Assembly (NCBI GenBank): GCA_020832235.1
Contig: JAFIEZ010000008.1
Coordinates: 222,420 to 286,419, forward strand
Source: Bacteroidota bacterium
GTDB lineage: Bacteria; Bacteroidota; Rhodothermia; Balneolales; HLUCCA01
Direction of reading: 5' to 3'
DNA length: 64,000 bases
Shown here: positions 1,839 through 64,000 of the stretch, in pieces
Position numbering within the stretch: the first letter of the stretch is position 1
Layout of the letters: each line of letters begins with the position of its first letter
Position numbers and translations under genes: made by a program
The notes under the pieces: generated by a model
Databases searched by the model: none
What the model saw: only the letters and a program-made list of their open reading frames with translations
Told to the model about the DNA's origin: nothing

Positions 1839-2687
1839 ATGAGTCAACGCCTCTTCATCTTTGCTGCCGTATTCGTTTTTGTAACGTCACTCCCGCTGAC
1901 GTCTGCAGGGCAACCGGGTATTGAACCGCCGGTGCGTGGCGTTGATACCTTCCGTACACCACTAGACGACGACCTCAGGCGTGCTGCTGCATTTAATCTG
2001 GTTCTGAACAACTTTGGCTTCGGCATAGCTGGGGAGTATCGCCGCGTAGTAAGCCCTCTGTCGGAGATTTATGCAGAATTACAGATTACAGCATTGCGCG
2101 ACGTGACCGAACAGAACTACCAGTTCTTCGGACAACAGATAATCCCAAATAAACGGAATCGGGTGTTGTCATTTCCGCTTACGCTCGGTTTCAAGCACAG
2201 GATATTTCCCCAGCCTATTTCCGATAACTTCCGTTTTTTTGTAAGTGCTCAGGGCGGCCCTACACTAGCATTTATTTATCCATACTATAATGCTGCAACC
2301 GTTCGCTTTGTGATGGAGGACGACCTGGCTACTGCCGGTAACCTCAACGATATTGTTCAGATTGGCAGGGTTGAGGCTAACATCGGTCAATTCGTGAATG
2401 ATGTATTTCAGGGCTGGGGCGATGGCGACTGGATGCTGGGTACCGCAGGTCAGATTGGTATAGGCGTTGACTTCGGAGAGCGCTTTAACAACGTAACTAC
2501 GTTGAAAATTGGTTTCACGTTCAGTCATTTTGCCCAGGGTATACAAGTTATGGATCCGCTAAATGCTGTAGGCATAATTCCAACACCCGATTTCGACAGT
2601 GATGTATTTGTACTGCGTGAAGGTACGCCAAAACAGACGTTTTTCGGCTCGCCATTTATCACACTCTCATTCGGGAATATGTGGTAG
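1839..2687 (+). CDS. Secreted/outer-membrane hypothetical protein (beta-barrel-like)
   Basis: N-terminal signal peptide MSQRLFIFAAVFVFVTSLPLTSAGQ; pattern of alternating aromatic strands; start chosen at internal ATG. Confidence 0.6.
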   Translation: MSQRLFIFAAVFVFVTSLPLTSAGQPGIEPPVRGVDTFRTPLDDDLRRAAAFNLVLNNFGFGIAGEYRRVVSPLSEIYAELQITALRDVTEQNYQFFGQQIIPNKRNRVLSFPLTLGFKHRIFPQPISDNFRFFVSAQGGPTLAFIYPYYNAATVRFVMEDDLATAGNLNDIVQIGRVEANIGQFVNDVFQGWGDGDWMLGTAGQIGIGVDFGERFNNVTTLKIGFTFSHFAQGIQVMDPLNAVGIIPTPDFDSDVFVLREGTPKQTFFGSPFITLSFGNMW

Positions 2688-2709
2688 ACAGGCCTAACTG
2701 CCACTGGCT

Positions 2710-3522
2710 TCAACTTGTAGTCCATTCCAATTCGTCTGCCAGGACTTGGAAAAAAGCTTCCGGCTGTCGAAGCATAGGAACATGTCCGCCCATCGGGATC
2801 TCCACAGTTCGCACGTCCTTGAAAAAGCGTGCAATTTTTTTATGGTAACCGAAAGGGAGCATACCGTCGTCGCGGCCCATAATCAAGGTTGTTCTGCCCG
2901 TGTAAACAGATAGTATAGGCAAAAGGCCCAAGGCGCGCGGACTGGTATATGGGTAGCTCATGGTGAGTTTATGGAACACTTTACCCATCATGATTAACTT
3001 TTCCGGATTTATATCCGGTGCAATGCGCAGCAATCCTTTTTGCATCAGCCAATCTTGCTGCAGCAGAAAACGCAGTGGCTGACGGCGGAACAACCTGAAC
3101 AGAATATCCTCTTTGGGATGAAATCCGCCGGGAGCTACCAGAATAAGGCGTGAAAACAGAGCAGGGTCATGTATGGCAGCCGCAGATAGTATTCTACAGC
3201 CAAAGGAATGCGCCACAACAGGTACTTCCTGAATTCCCAGAGATCTGAGCAGACCGGTTAATGCCTCTGCAAAACGTACAATATTCAGATCAGGCTGCGT
3301 TTCAGGATCTTCACCGTTATGATAAGGAAGACCAATCGACAACATGGATTTACCTTGGTCGATAATCTGAGGGGCAATCAGGTGCCATGTTCGGGTAGAT
3401 GCAGCAAAACCATGAATTCCAATCAGGTCTGGTTTACCTGTACCCCATTGCATCCAACGAATTCTGAAGCCGCCAATATTCCACTCCCCATAAAGAGGAT
3501 CACGCTGTTCGGAGGAAGTCAT
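2710..3522 (-). CDS. Alpha/beta hydrolase
   Basis: GIHGFAAS oxyanion region, VAHSFG nucleophile elbow, GRDDG and GGH motifs. Confidence 0.85.
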   Translation of the reverse strand: MTSSEQRDPLYGEWNIGGFRIRWMQWGTGKPDLIGIHGFAASTRTWHLIAPQIIDQGKSMLSIGLPYHNGEDPETQPDLNIVRFAEALTGLLRSLGIQEVPVVAHSFGCRILSAAAIHDPALFSRLILVAPGGFHPKEDILFRLFRRQPLRFLLQQDWLMQKGLLRIAPDINPEKLIMMGKVFHKLTMSYPYTSPRALGLLPILSVYTGRTTLIMGRDDGMLPFGYHKKIARFFKDVRTVEIPMGGHVPMLRQPEAFFQVLADELEWTTS

Positions 3523-4183
3523 GTAGCCATTTTTCCGGTTTTTCCATGGAATGAAGAATCAAGTCGGGACGATGCTGATTCAGTTCGTTTTCAGAAAACG
3601 GTCCTGTAGTTACGGCAATACATTGAGCCTTGTAATGGCGCGCGCAGGCCACATCGTTCGGTGTATCACCAATAATGATGATGTCTTCCTGTGAAAAGGT
3701 GCGATTGAATGCTGCTTCAGCTTTTTGGTGTGCTATGGCTGGCAGGGCGTTTCTATCGGCATGCTCACAACCAAAGGCACCAAAACTAAAGTGGTGATGC
3801 AGATCGGCATGTCTTAGTTTGGTAAATGCAGCATCCTCAAAATTTCCGGTGAGCAAGCCAAAAGGTATTTGTTGTTCTGTACACCAGGCAATGGTTTCAT
3901 TAACACCAGCATGAACTTCTACCCAGTCGGGTTGCACGGCTCTGCTCAATTCGGTGATATACCGATGTTTTACTTCTTCGAAACGAGTTGTATGTTGAGC
4001 TGCCGAACCCATTAGATCAGAAAAAATGGCCTTATCGGTACGCCCCGCGAATGAAATTCCGGTATGATCTACTTCATTGAGGTCGAGTTCCTGCAGCAGT
4101 GCCGCAATCATGGAACGCATTTTTTGATGGCTTACTGAAAGCAGCGTGCCATCAATATCGAATAATATTAATTTATGTTGCAT
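3500..4183 (-). CDS. HAD family hydrolase
   Basis: DIDGTLL motif I, GLLTGN motif II, IIGDTPNDVACA motif IV; overlaps the hydrolase start. Confidence 0.88.
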   Translation of the reverse strand: MQHKLILFDIDGTLLSVSHQKMRSMIAALLQELDLNEVDHTGISFAGRTDKAIFSDLMGSAAQHTTRFEEVKHRYITELSRAVQPDWVEVHAGVNETIAWCTEQQIPFGLLTGNFEDAAFTKLRHADLHHHFSFGAFGCEHADRNALPAIAHQKAEAAFNRTFSQEDIIIIGDTPNDVACARHYKAQCIAVTTGPFSENELNQHRPDLILHSMEKPEKWLHDFLRTA

Positions 4184-4237
4184 AAGAAAGAAGATAAGCA
4201 GTAGCTCGCCCTAATGACGTAAAAATCCGTTTTTTCG

Positions 4238-40234: not shown

Positions 40235-42667
40235 CTACTCCACCGTCACGCTTTTCGCCAGATTGCGCGGCATATCCACGTTGCATTTTCGTCCGATCGC
40301 GATGTGGTACGACAACAACTGCAACGGAATAACCGAAAGCAGCGGCGTGACCGCATCATGACAATGCGGCACGGTAATCATATATTCCGATAGTCCGGCC
40401 ACAGCGGCGTTATCGGGCGTGGTGATGGATATAATCCGTCCCTTCCGCGCGCGAACCTCCTCAATATTGGAGATCATCTTTTCATTCACGTGATCGGCCG
40501 TGGCCAGCACCACCACCGGCATGTGCTCATCAATGAGCGCGATAGGACCGTGTTTCATCTCCGCGGCGGGATAACCCTCGGCGTGAATGTAGCTGATTTC
40601 CTTCAGTTTAAGCGCACCCTCAAGCGCCACAGGGAAATTATAGCTCCTGCCCAGATACAGGAAGTTCGGGGCATAGGTAAAGGTCCGCGACATCTCCGCA
40701 ATCGCATCGTTCTGGGTCAGAATTTCGCTGATTTTCTCCGGCACCGCCGCCAGATCGCGCACAATCGCCGCAAATTCCTCGGGATCCAGCGTTCCCCGAT
40801 GCTGCGCCAGGTGCAACGCAATCATCGTAAGCACCGTAACCTGAGCCGTAAACGCCTTGGTAGAAGCCACTCCGATTTCCGGACCGGCATGGATATACAC
40901 CCCCGCATCGGTCTCGCGGGCGATGGTACTTCCCACCACATTCACCACGCCGATTACCGTAGCGCCCTTGCCCTTGGCCTCACGAAGCGCAGCCAGGGTA
41001 TCGGCCGTCTCGCCCGACTGCGACACCACAATCAGCACGTCATCCGACTCAATAATAGGATCGCTGTAGCGGAATTCCGAGGCGTAAGCCACCTCTACCG
41101 GAATCCGCGCCAGCGCCTCGATCAGGTACTCGCCCACCAGGGCCGAATGCCAGCTTGTTCCACAAGCCGCAATCAAAATCCGCCGCGCACTCAGCAGCTT
41201 ATCCATCACCGGTTCGAGTCCGCCCAGCTGCACCCGGCCTTCCTCCACCAGGAGTCGACCACGCATACAGTCCGACAGCGCCCGGGGCTGCTCAAAAATC
41301 TCTTTCAGCATGAAATGCTCGTACCCGCCCTTCTCAATCTGCTCCAGATCCATGGCCAGCTCATGCACTTCCTTGCGGATAGGCACGTTGCGTGTGGTAC
41401 GCACCTCATAACCCGTAGGCGTAACCACCGCCATTTCCTCATCATCGAGATAAACCACATGCTGGGTGTACTCGATAATCGGCGAGGCATCGGATGCCAC
41501 GAAAAACTCATTCTCGCCCACGCCCAACAGCAGGGGCGAACCCTTCCGTGCAGCAATAAGTGAGCCGGGCAGGTCCTTATGCACAATCACGATACCATAC
41601 GTGCCTTCTACCTGACTTAATGCCTGTTGCACGGCCGTAACAAAATCTTCGTCAATTACCTTATCAATTTCCTCAATAAGGTGAGCCAGTACCTCGGTAT
41701 CGGTCTGGGATGCAAATACATGGCCTTTGCGCTCGAGTTCTTTGCGCAGCGTGGCGTAATTCTCGATAATTCCATTGTGAACAAGGGCAAAATCCCCGCT
41801 ATTTCCGGTGTGCGGATGCGCATTCACATCGTTCGGCTCGCCGTGCGTGGCCCAGCGCGTATGTCCGAGCGCGGCCCAAACCTCATTTCCGTTGTGCTGC
41901 GTGCCCGATGTATTCACAAAATGTGAATCCGGGTGCAGAATGTTCACCCCGAAACGGGCGTGGGTGGCACCTTCTTTCGTTGCCGCCCTCGACCCGTCGT
42001 TCAAAATCTCGGTGTCGCCTCTGCGCGGCTCCTCGTCCCTTCCCGCCATGAGATCGGCCGGAAGCTCTCGGGGATCAATATGACTAAGGTCGACGTTGCT
42101 CAGGTCGGGTTCCATGTTCGGTGCCTCGTTACCCTCACCCGTTTCGGAACGTGGTTGTGTTTCGGAGCCTATTTCTGTTTCGGTTTCGGCACGGGTGTGT
42201 GCGAATTCATCTTCCTCGAAAATCGAAAGCTCGCGCGCTATGCCGTCGTTCTCGCCGTTTGTAGGTCCATTTCCATCACCAACATTCGATTCCTTGGCGT
42301 TGGATTCGGTGGAATGAGCGGAATCGGGTGATTCGGCATAGTCTAAAACGGGAGCTCCACTATGTTGAGCGGCTTTACTACTGGTGCGTGCTAAATCTGC
42401 ACTGCGCGCTAAATCTGCACTGCGTGCTAAATCTGCACCACGAGCCGCCTCCGACTCCCGCGCGAACGCGCCCTTGGCCATAGCGAACGTATCGGGAATC
42501 ATCGCCTCCAGCGCGGCCACCCTTCCTTTGGTCTTGAACACCTGCAACGAACCGTTAACGGCAGCAAATCCCGCCGAGTCATATCCCCGGTACTCCAGAC
42601 GCTTAAGTCCCTTGGTAATTACATCACGAGCGGGTCGACCGCCCACATAGCCTACGATTCCACACAT
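40235..42667 (-). CDS. glmS: Glutamine-fructose-6-phosphate transaminase (isomerizing) with large acidic insertion
   Basis: MCGIVGYVG N-terminus, LGHTRWATHGEPNDVNAHPH, SIS motifs, ends with NLAKSVTVE; 810 aa instead of about 610. Confidence 0.95.
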   Translation of the reverse strand: MCGIVGYVGGRPARDVITKGLKRLEYRGYDSAGFAAVNGSLQVFKTKGRVAALEAMIPDTFAMAKGAFARESEAARGADLARSADLARSADLARTSSKAAQHSGAPVLDYAESPDSAHSTESNAKESNVGDGNGPTNGENDGIARELSIFEEDEFAHTRAETETEIGSETQPRSETGEGNEAPNMEPDLSNVDLSHIDPRELPADLMAGRDEEPRRGDTEILNDGSRAATKEGATHARFGVNILHPDSHFVNTSGTQHNGNEVWAALGHTRWATHGEPNDVNAHPHTGNSGDFALVHNGIIENYATLRKELERKGHVFASQTDTEVLAHLIEEIDKVIDEDFVTAVQQALSQVEGTYGIVIVHKDLPGSLIAARKGSPLLLGVGENEFFVASDASPIIEYTQHVVYLDDEEMAVVTPTGYEVRTTRNVPIRKEVHELAMDLEQIEKGGYEHFMLKEIFEQPRALSDCMRGRLLVEEGRVQLGGLEPVMDKLLSARRILIAACGTSWHSALVGEYLIEALARIPVEVAYASEFRYSDPIIESDDVLIVVSQSGETADTLAALREAKGKGATVIGVVNVVGSTIARETDAGVYIHAGPEIGVASTKAFTAQVTVLTMIALHLAQHRGTLDPEEFAAIVRDLAAVPEKISEILTQNDAIAEMSRTFTYAPNFLYLGRSYNFPVALEGALKLKEISYIHAEGYPAAEMKHGPIALIDEHMPVVVLATADHVNEKMISNIEEVRARKGRIISITTPDNAAVAGLSEYMITVPHCHDAVTPLLSVIPLQLLSYHIAIGRKCNVDMPRNLAKSVTVE

Positions 42668-46707: not shown

Positions 46708-47274
46708 ATGATCATGCTGTCTGACATAGCAAACAACCACAATATCCGAGAGGATGTTGCCGAAACCGACCGTCAGCCGGCAGACAAAACCTGGCGCGCC
46801 TTCTACACCCGTCCACGACACGAACGCAAAGCCGCTGCCCGACTCGAAGAAGCCGGCATAGAAGTATATTGTCCCACCGTACGCGTGAAAGTACGCTGGA
46901 GCGACCGCTGGAAAAAAGTCACCAAAGTACTCTTCACCAGCTACGTATTCGCCCGGGTAAACGAAAAAGAACGCATCACCGTACTCGAAGATGAAAGCAT
47001 CTCACGTTGCGTACTCTACCTGGGCAAACCCGCCCTCATTCGCGACAATGAAATAGAAGCCATCCGATTATTGCTGGATGCCGGCACGAACATAACCATT
47101 CACCGCCTCAAACCCGGTACCAAAGTCCGCATTACCGACGGACCGCTGGAAGGGCGCATCGGTGAGCTCATTACCTACAACAACGCCCAAGAAGCCATCT
47201 TACGCATAGAAGCCCTGGGCACCGAAATTCAGGCTACCCTCACACCAGAGCAGGTTCAGGCTTTACAGACATAG
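46708..47274 (+). CDS. UpxY-like (NusG family) transcription antiterminator
   Basis: WRAFYTRPRHERKAAARLEEAGIEVYCPTV, PGTKVRITDGPLEGRIGELI KOW-like region. Confidence 0.9.
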   Translation: MIMLSDIANNHNIREDVAETDRQPADKTWRAFYTRPRHERKAAARLEEAGIEVYCPTVRVKVRWSDRWKKVTKVLFTSYVFARVNEKERITVLEDESISRCVLYLGKPALIRDNEIEAIRLLLDAGTNITIHRLKPGTKVRITDGPLEGRIGELITYNNAQEAILRIEALGTEIQATLTPEQVQALQT

Positions 47275-47412
47275 AACGTACACCTAGCCACCGAAATTCA
47301 GGCTACCCTCACACCAGAGCAGGTTCAAGCCTTACAGACATAGAACGTACACCTAGCCACCGAAAGCCCACACACCAGGGCCGATACAGTCTTACAAACG
47401 TAGAACCTAAAC
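47221..47412 (+). repeat. 69-bp tandem duplication of the upxY 3' end, with a third degenerate unit
   Basis: Units start accgaaa at 47221, 47290, 47359; first two nearly identical and include the stop codon. Confidence 0.93.
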
Positions 47413-47495
47413 CGGCCACAAATAAACTATTCCGTCAGCATAGTTACAGTAAAGTTAAAAATGTGTATCTTCCAAGCTGTGTGAATGCATCGTCA

Positions 47496-47624
47496 ATGAG
47501 AAAAGCAATAGAAATAGTGAAACAAAAGAATACAGTACAGGTTAAATCAACTGTACTGTGGTTTGGGTTTACCATGTCCATCCCCGAACGGGTGGAGCCA
47601 CGCTTACTAAGCACAATAAGTTGA
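47496..47624 (+). CDS. Candidate 42-codon leader ORF upstream of wecA copy 1
   Basis: MRKAIEIVKQKNTVQVKSTVLWFGFTMSIPERVEPRLLSTIS*; same length as the counterpart at 53565; overlaps a competing frame. Confidence 0.4.
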   Translation: MRKAIEIVKQKNTVQVKSTVLWFGFTMSIPERVEPRLLSTIS

Positions 47625-47632
47625 GAGACGTC

Positions 47633-48814
47633 ATGATTATTTACATACTAGCTGCTTTTTTACTGGGGGGAATGATTGCAGCATTCAGTATACCGCGGGT
47701 TATTAAACTGTCTATCCGTAAAAAACTGATGGATATCCCAGATAACGGCCGCAAACAACATAAAGCCCCTACACCTACACTCGGTGGAGTGGGAATCTTC
47801 TTCGGATTTGTACTTTCCATATCGGTGGTGGGCGGATTCATGGCCCCCGATTACTTCCCGTTTCTCATCGCCGGCGTCATTCTGCTCTTCATCGTGGGCA
47901 TTAAAGACGACCTGATGGGCGTTTCAGCAAAAAAGAAGTTGGTAGCACAGATTATCGCTTCGGCGCTGGTGGTGTACGGCGGAGGCATCTACATACCCGA
48001 GATGGGCGGACTCTTCGGTATTTATTCCGTTCCGGCACATTTTTCCCAACCCTTTTCCGTCTTTGCCATGGTGATTATTCTGAACGCCTACAATCTTATT
48101 GATGGAATTGACGGACTGGCAGGAAGCGTAGGATTCATAGCCAGTGCCACCTTCGGAACCTTCTTATTTCTTAATGGCGCGGTGAACGAAGCCGTTCTGG
48201 CCTTTGCCCTGGCCGGTGCACTTGCCGGATTTCTGATATATAATTTTGAACCGGCCCGGATTTTCATGGGCGATACCGGATCCATGGTTGTCGGATTTCT
48301 ACTGGCCATGCTCTCCTTTAATGTCATGCAGACCAACCTTGCCGCTGAAGTAGCGTATATGCCAGCCAGCGCAGTAATGGTATTTGGGGTGCTGATTATT
48401 CCCATGTACGACACGTTGCGTGTGATCCTTATTCGAATTAAAAATCGTCAGTCGCCGCTCAATCCCGATTCCAACCACATGCACCATGTATTGCTGAAGA
48501 CCGGTTATTCGCACCGGGGTATTGTTTTGGTTATGGCAGCGGCCAATCTCCTTATTATTACTACCGCATTTTTGATTCGGGATGTAAATGTGCATCTGCT
48601 CTTTGGTGTTATGGCTCTTCAGGCCATGCTTATATTACCTATCGGACGTACGGTCATGCATATTATCCGCGGACGGGAAGAAGAGGCGTATATGCGACAA
48701 ATTCGTATGATGACCCAGCCACAATCCCGTGATGTCGACAGGTCTTCCTCACACGAACAAGAAGAAACTAATAATTCAGCAAAACAATCTACAGTGCATA
48801 ACCTTTTTGAATAA
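47633..48814 (+). CDS. MraY/WecA-like undecaprenyl-phosphate sugar-1-phosphate transferase, copy 1
   Basis: MDIPDNGRKQHKAPTPTLGGVGIF, NAYNLIDGIDGLAG, FMGDTGSMVVGF, HMHHVL. Confidence 0.93.
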   Translation: MIIYILAAFLLGGMIAAFSIPRVIKLSIRKKLMDIPDNGRKQHKAPTPTLGGVGIFFGFVLSISVVGGFMAPDYFPFLIAGVILLFIVGIKDDLMGVSAKKKLVAQIIASALVVYGGGIYIPEMGGLFGIYSVPAHFSQPFSVFAMVIILNAYNLIDGIDGLAGSVGFIASATFGTFLFLNGAVNEAVLAFALAGALAGFLIYNFEPARIFMGDTGSMVVGFLLAMLSFNVMQTNLAAEVAYMPASAVMVFGVLIIPMYDTLRVILIRIKNRQSPLNPDSNHMHHVLLKTGYSHRGIVLVMAAANLLIITTAFLIRDVNVHLLFGVMALQAMLILPIGRTVMHIIRGREEEAYMRQIRMMTQPQSRDVDRSSSHEQEETNNSAKQSTVHNLFE

Positions 48815-52906: not shown

Positions 52907-53479
52907 ATGAGACCTCCAACCAACACCCGGGCAGGCACGACCAAGCAGGAATGCCGCACCACGGACACGCAGCGTTCAACCGATACGATCTGGCGCGCCT
53001 TCTATACCCGTCCGCGGCACGAACGCAAAGCCGCCGCCCGGCTCGAAGAAGCCGGCATCGAGGTGTATTGTCCTACCGTGACCACCAAAGTACGCTGGAG
53101 CGACCGCTGGAAAAAAGTCACCAAAGTCCTGTTCACCAGCTATGTCTTTGCGAGGGTCGACGAAAAGCAGCGCATCACGGTGCTCGAAGACGAAGGCATC
53201 TCGCGCTGTGTGCTGTATCTGGGCAAACCCGCCACCATACGCGACGAAGAAATTGAAGCCATCCGTTTTCTGCTGGATGCCGGCACGGATGTAACGGTTC
53301 ACTGACTCGAACCCGGCACCAAAGTCCGCATCACCGACGGACCGCTCGGAGGACGCATCGGCAAGCTCATAACCTACACCAACGCCAACCAGGCCATCTT
53401 ACGCCTCGAAGCCCTGGGCACGGAGATCCAGGCCACGCTTAACCCCGAGCAGATTACAGCGCTCGGTAAGGAAGCCTGA
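52907..53479 (+). pseudogene. UpxY-like antiterminator copy 2 with in-frame TGA at 53303-53305
   Basis: Open to VTVH*, then continues in frame as LEPGTKVRITDGPLGGRIGKLITYTNANQAILRLEALGTEIQATLNPEQITALGKEA*; copy 1 has Arg at this position. Confidence 0.88.
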
Positions 53480-53564
53480 ATTAGGTACAGAAACATTACA
53501 GTAGCTTAACAAGCTTAAAACGTAAAAAGTCTGTATTTTATAGGACTTAAGAAAAGCATCGACA

Positions 53565-53693
53565 ATGTCAGCTAACAACGACATAGAGAAACATAATCCT
53601 GCTGTGCGAGTTTACAAGCTTGTACAGTGGTTTGGGAATACCCGGTCCACAAAGAACGAAGTGGAACCACGACTAGCAAATACAACAAGGTGA
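53565..53693 (+). CDS. Candidate 42-codon leader ORF upstream of wecA copy 2
   Basis: MSANNDIEKHNPAVRVYKLVQWFGNTRSTKNEVEPRLANTTR*; shares WFGxTxS and VEPRL with the counterpart at 47496. Confidence 0.4.
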   Translation: MSANNDIEKHNPAVRVYKLVQWFGNTRSTKNEVEPRLANTTR

Positions 53694-53701
53694 GAGACGT
53701 C

Positions 53702-54880
53702 ATGATAATCTATATACTAGCTGCATTTACATTGGGGGGAGTGATCGCGGCATTCAGTATACCGCGCGTGATTCATCTGTCGGTTCGAAAAAAACTGATG
53801 GACTTGCCGGATAACGGCCGAAAGCAACACAAAGCTCCGACACCAACACTTGGGGGAGTGGGGATTTTCTTCGGATTTGTGCTTTCCATATCCATAGTGG
53901 GCGGATTTATGGCGCCCGACTACTTCCCGTTTCTGATTGCAGGCATAACCCTGCTCTTTATTGTAGGGATTAAAGACGACCTGATGGGCGTTTCGGCGAA
54001 GAAAAAGCTGGTTGCCCAGATCCTGGCTTCGGTCATGGTGGTTTACGGAGGAGGAATCTACATTCCTGAACTGGGCGGACTCTTCGGAATCAACAGTATT
54101 CCCGCGTACTTGTCCCAGCCCTTCTCGGTCTTCGCCATGGTCATCATATTAAACGCCTATAACCTGATTGACGGTGTAGACGGACTGGCTGGATCGGTCG
54201 GATTCATTGCCAGCGCTACCCTGGGAACCTTCTTATTTCTAAACGGAGCGGTAAATGAAGCTATTCTGGCCTTCGCCCTTGCCGGGGCCTTAGGCGGATT
54301 TCTCGTTTACAACTTCGAGCCAGCACGGATATTCATGGGCGACACGGGATCTATGGTCGTTGGGTTCCTGCTCGCCATGCTGGCCTTTAACGTGATGCAG
54401 ACCAACCTTACGGCTGAAATCGTGTATCTGCCTGCCAGCGCGGTTATGGTCTTCGGGGTACTCATTATTCCCATGTACGATACCTTGCGGGTAATCTTGA
54501 TTCGACTCAAAAATCGACAATCCCCGTTGAATCCCGACGCCAATCACATGCACCACGTGCTGATGAAGTCCGGCTACTCGCACCGCGGCATTGTATTGGT
54601 CCAGGCTACTGCAAGTCTGATTATTATCACTACCGCCTTCATACTACGTGAAGTGAATGTACATATACTCTTTGGCGTGATGGCAGCACAGGCTATACTG
54701 ATACTACCTGTTGCCCGAACCATGATGCATATCATACGCGGAAGAGAAGAAGAAGCGTATATGCGACAAATTCGTTTGATGACACAGGCCCGTGATAATG
54801 CCAGTGACTCCATTCACAATCAACAAAATGGGGAACCCTCCTCAAAAAAGCACCCGGTGACCTACAACCTCTTTGAGTAG
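53702..54880 (+). CDS. MraY/WecA-like undecaprenyl-phosphate sugar-1-phosphate transferase, copy 2
   Basis: Close paralog of 47633-48814 along its full length. Confidence 0.93.
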   Translation: MIIYILAAFTLGGVIAAFSIPRVIHLSVRKKLMDLPDNGRKQHKAPTPTLGGVGIFFGFVLSISIVGGFMAPDYFPFLIAGITLLFIVGIKDDLMGVSAKKKLVAQILASVMVVYGGGIYIPELGGLFGINSIPAYLSQPFSVFAMVIILNAYNLIDGVDGLAGSVGFIASATLGTFLFLNGAVNEAILAFALAGALGGFLVYNFEPARIFMGDTGSMVVGFLLAMLAFNVMQTNLTAEIVYLPASAVMVFGVLIIPMYDTLRVILIRLKNRQSPLNPDANHMHHVLMKSGYSHRGIVLVQATASLIIITTAFILREVNVHILFGVMAAQAILILPVARTMMHIIRGREEEAYMRQIRLMTQARDNASDSIHNQQNGEPSSKKHPVTYNLFE

Positions 54881-55034: not shown

Positions 55035-57383
55035 ATGGGCCGATACCGAGGCGAAGAAATTGCCAACCAGTACAGTGGACCCGGAGGTATACAGAACGAC
55101 CAAAACGATGATGAAATTGATCTTCGTCAGGTAATTGGACTTTTCTGGCACAATAAATGGGTTATCATACTGATAACTCTCGTATTTGGAACTGGAGCCG
55201 GATTTTACGCTTTCACTGCTATGCCTATTTACGAAAGTAACGGTAGTCTGCAAATCTCCGAAGCCGGAATGCGATACTCCATGGCAGGTTCTGATCTCAG
55301 TAATCTATTGGTATCCAATTTTGGTATTGGTATGGGTTCTAGTATTGAGAATGAAATTCATGTACTCCAGTCCCGAACGTTTACACGTGAATTAGCCCAG
55401 CGTATCTATGATGAGCGATTTCAGCAAGATGGTAGATTGTATCCGGTTTTATGGGAAGATTACCCGAATGACTCAACATTAGTTGATGTAGAACGCGTAT
55501 TTCGCAGACTACAAGGTCAAATACAGTTTCAAAGAGCAGACAGGAGTTCCAATCTTCTACGTTTAACCTACAGAAGTCCATCGCCATTTGAAGCGGCACG
55601 GGTTGTAGATTTGGCCATTGAAACGTACAGTGATGTATCTACTCGAATTAACCGGTCACAGGCACGAAGTGCTATTGAATTTTTAGATGCGGAACTTGAA
55701 AAGGTGACAAATAACCTGAGAGATTCGGAAGAGAGTTTACGCGAATTCATGAATGAAAATCGCTTAGTGCAACTTGATACGCAAGCGAGTGAGTTAATTA
55801 GAACGTTGTCTTCATTGGAAGCGGAATATCAATCCAATCAAATCAAATTGGTTGCAGTTGAATCGACTTTGGATGCGAGTAGAGAAGAACTATTACGTAT
55901 TACTCCGAATCTCCCCAGTCAATTAACGGCCTCCGTAGCCCCTCGTTTAAACAGGTTGCAAACCTTTTTAGCCGAACGGGAAACGGAACGTACAGTGCTG
56001 TTTTCTCGTAATCCAGGGCTTCGTTCTACCCCAAATGACCCAGCCATATCTACCCTCAATCAACAGATTGAAAGCATCAGAGAAGAAATCGCAGTATTAG
56101 CGAATGAGTTGATTAATGATGATAATTCGTTGGCATTTTTGAGTGCCGGAGATGGCAATATCTCGTCGCGATTCAATGAGTTGAGGAATCGAGTGGTGGC
56201 ATTGGAAATCGAGCAACAACAATATCTGGCATTATCGAACTTACTTGAAAGAAGAGTAGCCGAGTATAATGCATCATTTAATGATTTGCCGGACAATATG
56301 ATTGAAATGGCACGATTCAGAAGAAATCTTCAGATGAGTGAGCAGTTATACCTTTTAATTTCACAGCAGTCCGCTGAAACGGCTCTATGGGAGCAGACTC
56401 AGTCAGGTTTGGCCAGAATAGTCGATATGTCATTTTTACCCACAAGGCCGGTTGAGCCAAGGAAGCCATTAATTTTGTTGATTGGATTAATGTTAGGTGG
56501 CGTGGTTGCTGTAGGGTTTGTTGGCATACGTGAATTTCTCAAAGTAGAAATATCCAGCATTGATAAGCTGATGAAAAAAGGATATCCATTACTTACTATT
56601 ATCCCTGACATGACCAAGCACATTAAAGAAAACTTTGATGGGGCGGAATATGTAACCATACGTGGGAATATTTTGTCAACAGGTCTAGTCATGGTGTTGG
56701 ACTCTATATCGCCACTTGCTGAATCCTTTCGACGCTTACAGTCAAATGTAAGTTACTCTCAACCTGATAATCCACTTAAAACGATTATTGTTACCTCAGC
56801 GAACAAGAGTGAGGGAAAATCTACGGTTTCAACAAACCTTTGTGTGGCATTAGCAGAGGCAGGAAAGAAAGTATTATTAGTAGACTGTGATTTTAGACGA
56901 CCTCGTGTACATAGTTACTTTGGCAAAGAACAAGAGCCAGGCTCAATGGATGTTTTGTTCGGTGGACAAAACACCGATGATGTAATTCAAAAGACATTGA
57001 TACCTAATGTTGATGTGCTCACATCTGGGAAGCGCCCTCCTAATCCGGCGGAGATTACACGAAGTGGTAAGCTTCGTGAAATGATACGTGATCTTAAACA
57101 TAAATATGATCATGTCATCATCGATTCACCACCATTTGGTATAATATCCGATGCCGCACCTTTAATTGGAGAAGCGGATGGAGTGATACTCGTAGCTAGA
57201 TTTAATCAAACGAAATCACCTGAATTGGATTTGACAATTGATAACCTAAATAAGGTCAAAGCGAATGTAATCGGGACGGTTATGACGGCATTTGATCCTA
57301 AGAAATCTACCGGCTACTATTACAGTAGTTACTATTATAAATACGCATACGAAAGCTATGACAAATACCATGAGGAAGCTTAA
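55035..57383 (+). CDS. Polysaccharide biosynthesis tyrosine autokinase (Wzz plus BY-kinase)
   Basis: Wzz domain, Walker A TSANKSEGKSTVSTNLC, Walker A' LLVDCDFRRP, Tyr-rich tail GYYYSSYYYKYAYESYDKY. Confidence 0.94.
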   Translation: MGRYRGEEIANQYSGPGGIQNDQNDDEIDLRQVIGLFWHNKWVIILITLVFGTGAGFYAFTAMPIYESNGSLQISEAGMRYSMAGSDLSNLLVSNFGIGMGSSIENEIHVLQSRTFTRELAQRIYDERFQQDGRLYPVLWEDYPNDSTLVDVERVFRRLQGQIQFQRADRSSNLLRLTYRSPSPFEAARVVDLAIETYSDVSTRINRSQARSAIEFLDAELEKVTNNLRDSEESLREFMNENRLVQLDTQASELIRTLSSLEAEYQSNQIKLVAVESTLDASREELLRITPNLPSQLTASVAPRLNRLQTFLAERETERTVLFSRNPGLRSTPNDPAISTLNQQIESIREEIAVLANELINDDNSLAFLSAGDGNISSRFNELRNRVVALEIEQQQYLALSNLLERRVAEYNASFNDLPDNMIEMARFRRNLQMSEQLYLLISQQSAETALWEQTQSGLARIVDMSFLPTRPVEPRKPLILLIGLMLGGVVAVGFVGIREFLKVEISSIDKLMKKGYPLLTIIPDMTKHIKENFDGAEYVTIRGNILSTGLVMVLDSISPLAESFRRLQSNVSYSQPDNPLKTIIVTSANKSEGKSTVSTNLCVALAEAGKKVLLVDCDFRRPRVHSYFGKEQEPGSMDVLFGGQNTDDVIQKTLIPNVDVLTSGKRPPNPAEITRSGKLREMIRDLKHKYDHVIIDSPPFGIISDAAPLIGEADGVILVARFNQTKSPELDLTIDNLNKVKANVIGTVMTAFDPKKSTGYYYSSYYYKYAYESYDKYHEEA

Positions 57384-57386
57384 GCA

Positions 57387-57920
57387 ATGAATAACATTTA
57401 TATAAAGTCACTATTAATTTTTTCCACGTTACTTTTTTCATTTATAATAGTAGCCGATGCTCAGACAAGTAATTATTATCAAAGTCAAAATTTTCGACTT
57501 GGTGAGGCTCATTATCGTGTTGCAGACGCGTCTCAAGTTGCTGATACTATATTGATATGGGGTGACGTACAGTTACCAGGCACCTATCTCGTTCCACGTG
57601 GTATAAATTTAGCCCAAATGTTAGCTTACGCTAGAGGTCCAATTAGATTAAGAACAAGTGAGACTGATCTTGATTGGAGTAAAGTATTTGTCGAGTTTAC
57701 AGTGACTTCACGAAATTCAGAAGAATCTGTAATGTATGTTTTACAAGTTGATGGATATGTGCCACCTGAATTCTTTATAAATGAAGAAAAAAATTTTGAT
57801 ACGATAGTTGTAAGGGTAAGAAGACAACCAAACTTTTTAGATTATGTTAGAGCATATTCTCCAATAATAGCTACAGTTCTGAATACATTGCTACTATATC
57901 GAACAATTAGAGATTTATAA
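57387..57920 (+). CDS. Small secreted SLBB-like protein with C-terminal TM segment
   Basis: Signal peptide, ILIWGDVQLPGTYLVPRGINLAQMLAYARGP SLBB-like core, C-terminal hydrophobic SPIIATVLNTLLLYRTI. Confidence 0.7.
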   Translation: MNNIYIKSLLIFSTLLFSFIIVADAQTSNYYQSQNFRLGEAHYRVADASQVADTILIWGDVQLPGTYLVPRGINLAQMLAYARGPIRLRTSETDLDWSKVFVEFTVTSRNSEESVMYVLQVDGYVPPEFFINEEKNFDTIVVRVRRQPNFLDYVRAYSPIIATVLNTLLLYRTIRDL

Positions 57921-59457: not shown

Positions 59458-60714
59458 GTGATTAATAGAATACGAGTAAGTGGCGCAAAAAATTCTGCGA
59501 CACGTGTATTAGCAGCCTCCCTCATAAGTGATGAGAAATGTACTCTAATTAATTTTCCAACTGAATTAGTTGATGCTAACCACAAAAAACGATTTATTAA
59601 CAATATGGGTGGTATTGTTTCATTTAATTCATTGAATGAAACAGCGCTAATTGAATCTGTTTCATTCAATGATGAAATTTTATCATCGTATGACTACCCC
59701 ATACGAACTACATATTTATTGGTACCTGGTTTACTTAAAAAGAATGGCATAGCTAGGATTCCTTATCCTGGTGGGTGTAAGATTGGACATAGGGGGTATG
59801 ATTTACATATTATGGTTTGGGAAAGTTTAGGAGCTGTTGTAACTGAAAAAAAAGATTACATTGAGGTTGTTGCCAGCGAGCTTAAAGGTAATACCATTAA
59901 CTTTCCCATTTCAACTATAGGAGGAACTGAATCGGCATTAATTTGTGGTTCTATTGCAATTGGAGAAACCATTATAAAAAATGCATATGTGTCACCAGAG
60001 GTAAATGATCTTATCGCATTCCTTAAATCTATTGGTGTACAAATTGAAGTTCATGGTAATAGTTATATTAGGGTTGTTGGTAATAAATACCTGAGGGGAA
60101 CATCATTTGAAATCATGCCAGATAGGATTGAAGCAATAACTTGGATAATATTTGCGGTGCTTTCTGGAAGAAATCTTCAAATTGATAATGTGCCTTTTAG
60201 AGAGATGGCTGTGCCTTTACTTCATTTAAAAGATGCTGGCATTGATTACTATTCGAACAACACATCTGTTTTGATAACAGAAGAAAACTATACGCGCGGT
60301 ATACAACCTTTTGAGCTTGCTACAGGAACTCATCCTGGAATTATATCAGATATGCAGCCTTTTTATGTATTACTAGGCTTAAAAGCAAATGGCATTAGTA
60401 GAATATATGATTATAGATATCCTGAACGTATAGCATATCTCAAAGAACTTCAGAAGTTTACAAGTGGTGGTCTTGAAGGTATATCTGGCAAAATTACGAT
60501 TAACGGAGTACAAAATTTCAAACCTGCTGAAGCAGATTCTACAGACTTACGTGGTAGTATGGCAGTGCTTATGGCTGCTTTACTATCTGGTAATAATGGT
60601 GAATCAATTATACATAATATTAGTATGGCTTTAAGAGGGTATAATAAATTAGAAAATAAACTAAATCAGCTTGGATATAAACTAAAGATTGAAAATGGAT
60701 CCGCAATTATTTAA
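59458..60714 (+). CDS. MurA-like enolpyruvyl transferase paralog
   Basis: RVSGAKN, PGGCKIG (catalytic Cys context), MPDRIEA, HPGIISDMQP, RGYNKLENKL; GTG start. Confidence 0.88.
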   Translation: MINRIRVSGAKNSATRVLAASLISDEKCTLINFPTELVDANHKKRFINNMGGIVSFNSLNETALIESVSFNDEILSSYDYPIRTTYLLVPGLLKKNGIARIPYPGGCKIGHRGYDLHIMVWESLGAVVTEKKDYIEVVASELKGNTINFPISTIGGTESALICGSIAIGETIIKNAYVSPEVNDLIAFLKSIGVQIEVHGNSYIRVVGNKYLRGTSFEIMPDRIEAITWIIFAVLSGRNLQIDNVPFREMAVPLLHLKDAGIDYYSNNTSVLITEENYTRGIQPFELATGTHPGIISDMQPFYVLLGLKANGISRIYDYRYPERIAYLKELQKFTSGGLEGISGKITINGVQNFKPAEADSTDLRGSMAVLMAALLSGNNGESIIHNISMALRGYNKLENKLNQLGYKLKIENGSAII

Positions 60715-60740
60715 ATGAAAATAAAGTAAAATAAATTAAT

Positions 60741-61703
60741 TTGGAAAGTTTCATTTTAAATAAAGAGCACATCCAAAATCTTCATAGCAAAGTCTCTGGT
60801 GCTATTAGGGAAAATGTTGATCTAGCAAGTATAAGTAGATGGAAAATTGGTGGTATCGCTGATTGCATTGTTCAACCCTCTTCTACACATGAAGTAGCTA
60901 CAATTATTCAATATTTTTTTGAATATAGAATACCATACATTGTGATAGGTTCTACAAGCAATTTACTTTTTGCGGATGAAGGATTACGAGTACCATGCAT
61001 ACAAATTGGAAGTCGAATGTCAAAGTATAGCATTCAAAGTCCAACTGCATGGGCACAAGCAGGTGTTTGGATACCATTTTTTGCAAGAAATGTAGCGAAA
61101 AATGGATTGAGCGGTATAGAACATACTGCTGGAATACCTGGAACGCTAGGCGGATTAATATATATGAATGGTGGCAGCCAACGCAAGGGAATTGGTGATC
61201 ATATAAATACTGTGACAGCAGTATCATCTGAAGGTTTTATAAAAAAATTCAATAAAAATGAATGTGAATTTGAATATAGAGCTTCCGCATTTCAACATAA
61301 TGGTTTTTTAATAACAGAGGCTACATTAAGCCAATTTAAAAATAAAAAATATTCGTTAATACGCGAAGATATGTTAAAAATACTAGAGTCTCGGAGAAAG
61401 AAGTTTCCGAATAAGCTACCAAACTGTGGTTCTACTTTTATTAGCAATCCTAAAATGTACGATGAGTTTGGGCCACCAGGGAAAATAATTGAAGATCTCG
61501 GATTAAAAGGTTTAACCAAGGGTGGTGCAACTGTTTCCAAAATCCACGGTAATTTTATAAATAATGAAGGTGGTGCAAAGTCTTCAGATGTAATATGGCT
61601 GATAAGAACAATTCAAAATGAAGTGTACAGGAAAACTAATACTTTATTAAAAACAGAGGTTAAGTATATTAATGAATACGGATTAATATCTGAAATACAA
61701 TAG
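60741..61703 (+). CDS. MurB-like UDP-N-acetylenolpyruvoylglucosamine reductase paralog
   Basis: SRWKIGGIADCIVQP, GSTSNLLFADEG, GIEHTAGIPGTLGG, LPNCGSTFISNP, GLKGLTKGGATVSKIHGNFINNEGGA; TTG start. Confidence 0.9.
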   Translation: MESFILNKEHIQNLHSKVSGAIRENVDLASISRWKIGGIADCIVQPSSTHEVATIIQYFFEYRIPYIVIGSTSNLLFADEGLRVPCIQIGSRMSKYSIQSPTAWAQAGVWIPFFARNVAKNGLSGIEHTAGIPGTLGGLIYMNGGSQRKGIGDHINTVTAVSSEGFIKKFNKNECEFEYRASAFQHNGFLITEATLSQFKNKKYSLIREDMLKILESRRKKFPNKLPNCGSTFISNPKMYDEFGPPGKIIEDLGLKGLTKGGATVSKIHGNFINNEGGAKSSDVIWLIRTIQNEVYRKTNTLLKTEVKYINEYGLISEIQ

Positions 61704-61837
61704 TAGATGCTTTAATGATTAATATTAGCTAATAATATACACAATACGTGAGCTTTATGTTCTGGACCCCAAAATAGCTGTAGAGAAATTTCACTTAAGG
61801 GGTAATTATCTTAAGGTACAAAAAACACATAATTTGT

Positions 61838-62248
61838 ATGGCTCAGCAGAAATGGGAAATATTACAAGAATCTGAAGCGCACGGTGTATCGGTCAGAATT
61901 CGATAAAACCAGATTTATTAAAAAACGTTTTATGGATGGAAGGCGAAGTACGAACTGGAAGGTCTCTCCAAACTTGAATCCCGTACTAGACCGGCAACAT
62001 TACAACAGAATGGCTCTGTGGAAGCTTTGCATAGAAACATTGAACGAAGCATTTATTTTAGAAAAAATTTATCATATGATCTCGATGATGCAAGACTGAC
62101 ACTTAAGGAGTTCGTTAACATTTATAGTAGCTAGCGAATCCATTCAGGTTTCGGATTCAAAAGTCCACAGCAGTACTTGATTGAAAAAGGATATGGTAGT
62201 GTTTTGAATTACACAACAAACCATCAAAACAATAATCACATAAAATAA
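61838..62248 (+). pseudogene. Decayed transposase remnant
   Basis: MAQQKWEILQESEAHGVSV, then KYELEGLSKLESRTRPATLQQNGSVEALHR, DLDDARLTLKEFVNIYSS*RIHSGFGFKSPQQYLIEKGYG; frameshifts, stop and missing DDE middle. Confidence 0.82.
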
Positions 62249-62576
62249 AATAGTATTCAAATTATGGGGGGGGGCTAGATCAAATGTTTTTGTCTGTGAT
62301 ATGATTTACGTCCAAAAAAAGACAAAGAAGTGATTGACAAATCAAGTTGTGATTGTTATCTGTCCAGGCTATATAGCTCTATGGTAGATTTAATACCCGA
62401 ATAGTACATCCTTACCTAATAACTTACTCCTTGAAACAATCCATTTTAGTGTCTTTAAAATGGAGAGAAAATTAGATAGCAGTTAAATATTAATTATAAC
62501 AATGCAACTACAACAAGAAATCACATCCTCTATTTTCTAATTGTTTAGAGATGGTGGAGATTATAATATCAAAAAT

Positions 62577-63719
62577 ATGTCCGGAGTAATTATTGCGATA
62601 AGTGGATCAAAAACTGGTGGAGCAGAAACTAGAGGTATCAAAATAGCCAGTGCTCTAAGTAAAGATATTGAAGTGGTCTTAGTAATCAATAAAGACTTAC
62701 ATAGTGCAGTCTTAAACAATAAGTTATTGTTTAAATGTATAGAAAATCTTAAAATAGTTACAATTTCAAATAGCGTATTAAATAAAATACTATATAAAAC
62801 TGTACTAAAAATAGAGAATTATATACCAGTATTCATAGCTAGATATATATATGTAGAATTGATTGCATTTAGATGGGTAAAAATTCTAAGCGACTATGGG
62901 TATCCAGTTCATAACATATGTGGTGAAATTTCAAGAATTGCAACTGCTGTGGTTTCAGCTCATAAAAATGTGACAATAGAACTCACAAGTAATCGTCTTG
63001 ATAGTCAATTAGATAGGTTAGAAAGACTAATAGGTTATAATGAAGGAAATACTAATTTAATTGCAGTAAGTGATACAGTAAAGGATAGGTATAGTAAGTA
63101 TGGAGTAACCGATGTATACCAATCAGCCTTTGTTTTTAAAAACAACTTAAGGGAAGTAAAAGAAGAAAACAAGGAAAATGTAATAATTTTTGGACACCAG
63201 CTTAAGAAAGAAAAGAATGCGATATTGTTTGCTGATGCTATATCAGATTTATATAGTGAAAATAAGCTCAAATCTTGGAGAATTTTAATTTTAGGAGATG
63301 GTCCACTACGAAAACAATTAGAATCAATATTGTCAATACCAATCAAAAGCCGTGTTGTAGAAATTCGGGAAAGCAATAATTTTGTAGAAGAGCTTAATAA
63401 GGCAAAAATATTTGTATCATTGATAATTACAGGTAATTATCCATCTCAAAGTGTAGCGGAGGCTATTGAGTCAAAATGTTTATTAATACTAAGTGATACT
63501 GGTCTTAGTAGAGAAAAATATGGAGAGAGTGGGATATGCTACACTACACTTGAGAAAAGTGATATTAAAAAAAAGATATTACATTTAATTGATTTATCAG
63601 AAACCGATCTATATAAAATAAATACAACTAAAACATACTCTTTATTCTTGAAATTGTTAAGTGAGTCTCCTACGCAGTCATTGCTTAATAAGTACAAGAC
63701 TTCGAACATACAATTATGA
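62577..63719 (+). CDS. Glycosyltransferase family 4-like protein
   Basis: GSKTGGAETRGIKIASAL N-terminus, VIIFGHQLKKEKNAILFADAI, ILGDGPLRKQLE, PSQSVAEAIESKCLLILSDTG; start set at internal ATG. Confidence 0.85.
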   Translation: MSGVIIAISGSKTGGAETRGIKIASALSKDIEVVLVINKDLHSAVLNNKLLFKCIENLKIVTISNSVLNKILYKTVLKIENYIPVFIARYIYVELIAFRWVKILSDYGYPVHNICGEISRIATAVVSAHKNVTIELTSNRLDSQLDRLERLIGYNEGNTNLIAVSDTVKDRYSKYGVTDVYQSAFVFKNNLREVKEENKENVIIFGHQLKKEKNAILFADAISDLYSENKLKSWRILILGDGPLRKQLESILSIPIKSRVVEIRESNNFVEELNKAKIFVSLIITGNYPSQSVAEAIESKCLLILSDTGLSREKYGESGICYTTLEKSDIKKKILHLIDLSETDLYKINTTKTYSLFLKLLSESPTQSLLNKYKTSNIQL

Positions 63720-63740: not shown

Positions 63741-64000
63741 TGACCTCCTCCCACAAAATAGAGTCGTTGTAAAATAGAGTTTTTCGGGTAATTTGGAAGG
63801 TGGGAGCATTCCAAAATCAAATCCGAAAGACCGTGAAAAAATCAAAATTTACCGAGGCCCAAATTGCCTTTGCCCTCAAACAAGCCGAGACCGGAACCCG
63901 AGTGGAGGAGATCTGTCGAAAGTTTGGGATCTCTCAAGCCACCTTTTTCAACTGGAAGAAGAAGTACGGCGGATTAGGTACCAGTGAACTTCGACGTCTG
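63741..64000 (+). mobile_element. IS3-family-like insertion sequence, left end, truncated by the window edge
   Basis: TGACCTCCTCCCACAAAATAGAG terminus-like sequence followed by orfA. Confidence 0.75.
63833..64000 (+). CDS. IS3-type transposase OrfA, partial (GTG start)
   Basis: MKKSKFTEAQIAFALKQAETGTRVEEICRKFGISQATFFNWKKKYGGLGTSELRRL...; the listed 63793 ORF is a different, spurious frame. Confidence 0.9.
   Translation, partial: MKKSKFTEAQIAFALKQAETGTRVEEICRKFGISQATFFNWKKKYGGLGTSELRRL

Follow-up and report, generated by a model that had tools for sequence, protein, structure and literature searches.

Why would a bacterium carry relatives of two peptidoglycan enzymes, MurA and MurB, inside a locus for an exported polysaccharide? 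The question is raised by the window, the whole 64,000-nucleotide stretch of Bacteroidota DNA analysed here, in which a murA-like and a murB-like gene lie back to back among exopolysaccharide (EPS) genes. We think it likely that murAB is a horizontally acquired two-enzyme module whose product would be a UDP-activated sugar with a 3-O-lactyl (1-carboxyethyl) group, destined for the exported polymer. The genes concerned are the following.

53627-54880, forward strand: glycosyl transferase family 4 (WecA/MraY-type), the initiating sugar-phosphate transferase of the EPS locus (PF00953)
55035-57383, forward strand: Wzc-like polysaccharide tyrosine autokinase (PF02706, PF13807, PF13614; TIGR01007 above cut-off)
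57387-57920, forward strand: small probable exported protein, no Pfam match; a counterpart has the same place in genome G006 (L044 7220-7762)
58133-59446, forward strand: Wzx-like flippase, the gene next to murA on its upstream side with 11 nt between them (PF13440/PF01943)
59458-60714, forward strand: EPS-type MurA of class I, a predicted enolpyruvyl transferase acting on a UDP-sugar; 418 aa, GTG start by the ORF call (PF00275, PRK09369)
60741-61703, forward strand: EPS-type MurB, a predicted FAD enolpyruvyl-sugar reductase of type II; 320 aa, TTG start by the ORF call (PF02873/PF01565, TIGR00179)
62541-63719, forward strand: glycosyltransferase group 1 (GT4-type), downstream of the pair (PF00534/PF13692)

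Around the pair the genes run in the order Wzc-like kinase, small probable exported protein, Wzx-like flippase, murA, murB and then the GT4-type glycosyltransferase, with 26 nt between murA and murB. The make-up fits a Wzx/Wzy EPS locus, with a flippase, Wzc, a Wza-like export protein and both initiating and other glycosyltransferases adjoining the pair. A homologous flippase holds the same place relative to the pair in G006 (L044). The sequence-only reading of this DNA had described MurA-like and MurB-like genes that follow a flippase and a tyrosine autokinase in an AT-rich block. Pfam, NCBIfam and PDB comparisons bear this out for both ORFs, as do Pfam/NCBIfam profiles for the flippase and the kinase, and the pair is AT-rich (34.0% GC in murA and 33.6% in murB vs 48.9% for window positions 1-55000).

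Transposase fragments flank the block. A broken transposase remnant follows murB (61830-62250; 61.83-62.24 kb), and the N-terminus of an IS3-type transposase (HTH_Tnp_1, 2.2e-17) lies at 63833-64000 (63.83-64.0 kb), where contig C3 ends at window position 64000. That the pair is a silent or decaying remnant near a contig end rich in transposase fragments, as these flanking pieces might suggest, is very improbable: both ORFs are unbroken and have every catalytic residue, and orthologues at 57-68% identity retain the order and context.

The window MurA matches PF00275 (2.5e-46) and PRK09369 (308.6 bits, over the cut-off) and falls below the murA equivalog cut-off of TIGR01072 (303.1 bits vs 392.7). 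Its AlphaFold2 model has a mean pLDDT of 92, the sole segment below 50 being residues 107-112, the loop at the catalytic Cys, and the top matches of the model in the PDB are all MurA (TM up to 0.90). The protein thus resembles MurA (EC 2.5.1.7) in fold and in its PEP and catalytic residues, including Cys115, Asp305 and Arg397, but differs from it in being only about 29-31% identical to housekeeping MurA, in its place in an EPS locus and in the replacements V327R, T304S, A92T, P303I, A186Y and E188S. The window MurB has FAD_binding_4 and MurB_C domains and passes TIGR00179 (193.2 bits vs a cut-off of 144.5). Like type II MurB, it has equivalents of R159, S229 and E325 by alignment to E. coli; across the EPS-type MurB set the R and S are found in 60/60 sequences and the E in 59/60 (one gap). 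The MurA and MurB motifs listed in the sequence-only reading were all located, at positions that correspond to the catalytic residues of the E. coli enzymes.

The pair is not the sole copy. The window genome encodes three EPSP-synthase-family proteins and two MurB proteins. Used as a query in its own genome, the window MurA retrieves only itself and C10:518226-519428, and the remaining EPSP-synthase-family protein, on C14, is for this reason taken to be AroA. The second, housekeeping MurB is on C13, near alaS and pyruvate dehydrogenase genes, and is of the E. coli-like type, unlike the EPS-type MurB. Separate housekeeping murA and murB genes, the absence of which the sequence-only reading had named as grounds for dropping its proposal, are therefore present on C10 and C13. 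Identity to the housekeeping proteins of the same genome is 30% for the window MurA and 26% for the window MurB. Both enzymes have a second copy in 15/15 carrier genomes searched, and 14/15 have one MurA over the TIGR01072 cut-off; in the carrier genomes tested the EPS-type proteins score 294-381 with this model and the housekeeping ones 430-597 in 14/15.

A genome-wide scan of 84,980 species representatives returned 162 MurB relatives, the best 80 loci of which were taken for context analysis. These 80 come from Balneolota, Bacteroidota, Pseudomonadota, Verrucomicrobiota, Actinomycetota, Sumerlaeota, Planctomycetota, Desulfuromonadales and others. EPS-type MurA is encoded in 48 of these best 80 of 162 loci, and in 44 of the 48 the two genes share a strand with murA in front, in most cases overlapping or no more than 110 nt apart. 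The other 32 loci lack MurA; some of them are cut by contig ends and many are from Desulfuromonadales. Once near-duplicates are removed, a glycosyltransferase or flippase (named clusters) lies within about 9.5 kb in 41/46 loci, and Pfam scans of 198 neighbours agree with the polysaccharide context. In Alteromonas EPS loci (e.g., L084) a class I murAB is accompanied by glycosyltransferases, a flippase and a Wzy_C protein.

Occurrence is patchy. Among 129 genomes of the window's order, EPS-type MurB is found in the window genome and two others and is absent from the two congeners; among 395 genomes of the phylum it is found in the window genome only (539 vs at most 257 bits). EPS-type MurB is plasmid-borne in Haematobacter, Qingshengfaniella, Rhizobium gallicum and Agrobacterium. 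The patchiness, the low GC and the plasmid carriage together point to spread of the EPS-type murAB family by horizontal transfer. The phage matches listed are 29-32% identical and no nearer than housekeeping MurA.

In the MurA tree, a branch supported at 100/99 separates 52 EPS-type sequences from 45 housekeeping sequences. The EPS side holds a class I of 24 sequences, including that of the window (100/100), a class II of 26, including that of Rhizobium mongolense (100/99), and two Sumerlaeota sequences; the two classes have a median identity of 36%. The class I stem is long and its exact rooting is unsure. The housekeeping MurA of the window genome groups with that of the congener G002. The window MurA thus lies outside the housekeeping clade, and placement within it was the second finding that had been expected to tell against a polysaccharide role.

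The gene neighbourhoods of the two classes differ: a hexapeptide acetyltransferase is encoded in 12/24 class II loci vs 0/20 class I loci (Fisher p 0.0001, relatedness ignored). UGD genes stand in just 15/44 loci, and an association of UGD with MurA class, considered as evidence for a uronic acceptor, was set aside as not significant (p 0.11).

These data bear on whether the pair is an extra peptidoglycan supply, or a resistance to fosfomycin or another MurA inhibitor, that landed by chance in an EPS locus. The enzyme families are the peptidoglycan ones and second MurA copies exist in Firmicutes. We nevertheless hold this explanation to be improbable given the recurrent place by flippases and glycosyltransferases across phyla, the position of the window MurA far outside the housekeeping clade and the fosfomycin-target Cys115, which is kept in 52/52 EPS-type MurAs. 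No Mur ligase genes adjoin the window pair. The alternate wall or self-resistance pathway offered earlier as a second option is disfavoured on the same grounds. A lactyl-ether sugar nucleotide for the exported polysaccharide, which had been the main proposal, is the best-supported reading, and neither the copy number nor the tree refutes it.

The two genes have not moved together. When MurA class labels are placed on the MurB tree they change 13 times, at least seven of the changes being forced by well-supported branches, against a mean of 15.3 for shuffled labels, and grouping of the labels into single clades is rejected. As the labels are unclustered, MurA and MurB are not one travelling unit. 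Loci L109 and L124 encode MurBs that are 87.5% identical and MurAs of different classes that are 37% identical, with DNA similarity starting 8 nt before murB. Loci L071 and L062 have UGD, an epimerase, the flippase and murB in common at 73-77% DNA identity, and murA and the preceding gene are replaced. A mixed pair in L045 (G036, 2077-4226), where a class II EPS-type MurA is joined by a MurB that does not belong to the EPS-type lineage (197 bits), is a further sign of separate exchange. Exchange of MurA classes against a conserved MurB is the pattern expected if MurA selects the sugar and MurB is generic; MurA has the look of a sugar-selecting module that can be exchanged, and MurB that of a reductase without such a choice.

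The EPS-type MurB lineage is apart from other housekeeping MurB in the tree, and it is the only MurB in 10/10 Desulfuromonadales genomes searched. The sole MurB belongs to this lineage at L097, L076, L093, L099, L121 and other Desulfuromonadales loci; in Malonomonas rubra (L097) it lies beside tgt-secDF-recJ, not in the dcw cluster. Being the sole MurB of those genomes, it must be their peptidoglycan enzyme, and the type therefore carries normal reductase chemistry. The EPS MurB thus descends from an ordinary reductase lineage or has a common root with one (the tree is unrooted). The window MurB differs from other type II MurB in the motifs GGSQRKG and NCGSxFxSNP...GPPGK, which are common to the single-copy Desulfuromonadales MurB. 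We rejected the NCGS/GPPGK motifs as a mark of EPS function, since the sole MurB of Desulfuromonadales is of this type too.

Catalytic and pocket positions were assigned by alignment to E. coli MurA. K22, N23, R91, C115, R120, H125, D305, R331, D369, R371 and R397 (E. coli numbering) are unchanged in classes I and II; K22, R91, C115, R120, D305, R331, D369, R371 and R397 stand at 100% in the 24 class I and 26 class II sequences. We take positions 327, 304, 303, 92 and 121, from known MurA structures, to line the UDP-GlcNAc site. Published residue lists partly back these assignments (PMC11628175; PMC10816260). V/I327 is replaced by R in 50/50 sequences of the two classes and T304 by S in both. 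A92 has become T in class I or N in class II, A186 Y or H, P303 I or N and E188 T/S or R; P121 is G in 22/24 class I and K in 19/26 class II sequences, and V161 is R in class II. In housekeeping MurA, T304, A92, A186 and P303 are invariant or nearly so and position 327 is V/I. Because the catalytic and PEP residues are unchanged while the pocket residues are replaced, we infer that EPS-type MurA would retain its PEP chemistry and have an altered acceptor. The added Arg at 327 (R320 in the window protein) is compatible with an acidic acceptor, though it falls short of proof.

The pair could instead make plain UDP-MurNAc as an EPS monosaccharide, with the changed residues tuning regulation or kinetics and not the acceptor. 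This is a sub-case of the lactyl-sugar reading, and confidence in the two overlaps. The uridine-side and catalytic residues N23, R120, D123, H125 and D305 are kept in EPS-type MurA, and its MurB partner belongs to the type on which Desulfuromonadales rely for peptidoglycan. Plain UDP-MurNAc is possible but doubtful, since the cell already produces it and dedicated copies would be redundant, since MurA classes have been exchanged in place next to a conserved MurB, and since invariant or hydrophobic pocket residues have been replaced in a fixed and class-specific way (V327R, T304S, A92T/N, P303I/N, A186Y/H). The product is probably other than plain MurNAc. MurNAc or an isomer, the sugar that the sequence-only reading had suggested, is on these pocket residues less likely than another UDP-sugar.

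Judged from sequence, UDP-GlcNAc is probably not the acceptor; another UDP-sugar, such as a UDP-hexuronic acid, is the most likely one and would be chosen by the MurA class. By family chemistry, the MurA-like enzyme would join PEP and the UDP-sugar to give an enolpyruvyl-UDP-sugar, which the MurB-like flavoenzyme would reduce with NADPH to the 3-O-lactyl ether. A neighbouring glycosyltransferase may then attach the acidic sugar to the repeat unit on its lipid carrier, and the flippase next to the pair would export that unit for polymerisation. On a wider proposition our judgement is evenly balanced: that an exchanged, widespread MurA/MurB family may be a general route to 3-O-lactyl sugar nucleotides for EPS, in which at least two MurA classes with rebuilt pockets have been swapped near the murA/murB boundary, MurB has been kept and MurA selects the sugar (e.g., UDP-hexuronic acids, leading to 3-O-lactyl-GlcA).

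Chemical work has found lactyl-ether sugars in marine exopolysaccharides, O antigens and capsules, but most of the enzymes that make them are unassigned. 3-O-(1-carboxyethyl)-D-glucuronic acid has been found in two Alteromonas EPS (PMC2901825). Its ether position is exactly the one that our reading would predict, as a link at genus level, the strains differing from those with the murAB loci. Papers on Rhizobium favelukesii, Cobetia and Klebsiella that use the term "1-carboxyethyl" in fact describe pyruvate ketals and were discarded. The ketal pyruvyltransferases of EPS also give a PEP-derived acidic decoration, but they are another enzyme class, and their product is a pyruvate acetal instead of a UDP-sugar with a lactyl ether.

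In a 2019 review of pyruvate chemistry on glycans, the MurA-fold enolpyruvyl transferases are peptidoglycan MurA and NikO only (PMC6801904). NikO, of nikkomycin biosynthesis, is likewise a homologue of MurA that has been taken into a different pathway, where its acceptor is UMP (PMC6801904). It differs in that no MurB partner has been described, in lying outside an EPS locus and in an identity of 22-23% in the fold match. In Shigella boydii type 17, two glucolactilic acid genes (GenBank DQ875941; Senchenkova 2006) were confirmed in 2006, going by the title (cited in PMC5643014). The likeness, two genes reported for a lactyl-ether sugar of an exported polysaccharide, is one of title and not of compared sequences. 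Three EPS-type murAB pairs, used as DNA queries against 5,426 E. coli genomes, gave no match, although divergent homologues could escape such a search. The Shigella sugar reportedly carries its lactyl group at O-4, vs the 3-O position expected here. In our literature search, no paper described MurA/MurB homologues as enzymes for EPS sugars.

The EPS-type family offers sequence-level candidate enzymes in culturable hosts (Halomonas, Marinobacter, Alteromonas and Rhizobium). If the proposed role is true, the family supplies the genes so far lacking for sugars that chemical analysis has shown in marine slimes, and an essential antibiotic-target pathway has been recruited as an exchangeable surface-glycan module. 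For annotators, a second murA/murB in a polysaccharide locus is probably not a set of peptidoglycan genes.

Many carriers (loci L046-L072, counted without a background set) are halophile, soda-lake or alkaliphilic, among them Halomonas, Thioalkalivibrio, Roseinatronobacter, Pseudotabrizicola alkalilacus and a Balneolia sediment MAG. In a Balneolia MAG (G038/L046, also L219), the EPS-type MurB gene lies between those of a GFO/IDH/MocA oxidoreductase and a UDP-GlcNAc 2-epimerase; no EPS MurA is visible on that short contig. Elsewhere in the window, a unit of an UpxY/NusG-like antiterminator and a GT4 (WecA-type) transferase occurs twice about 6 kb apart (46791-47891 and 52990-53960), with 84% and 81% identity in stretches of 300 nt; of the two antiterminator ORFs, the second is the shorter (132 vs 188 aa). 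With this unit doubled, two EPS modules appear to be arranged in tandem. On the reverse strand, 40235-42667 encodes a glucosamine-fructose-6-phosphate aminotransferase-like protein (810 aa) whose N-terminal domain contains a long low-complexity insertion.
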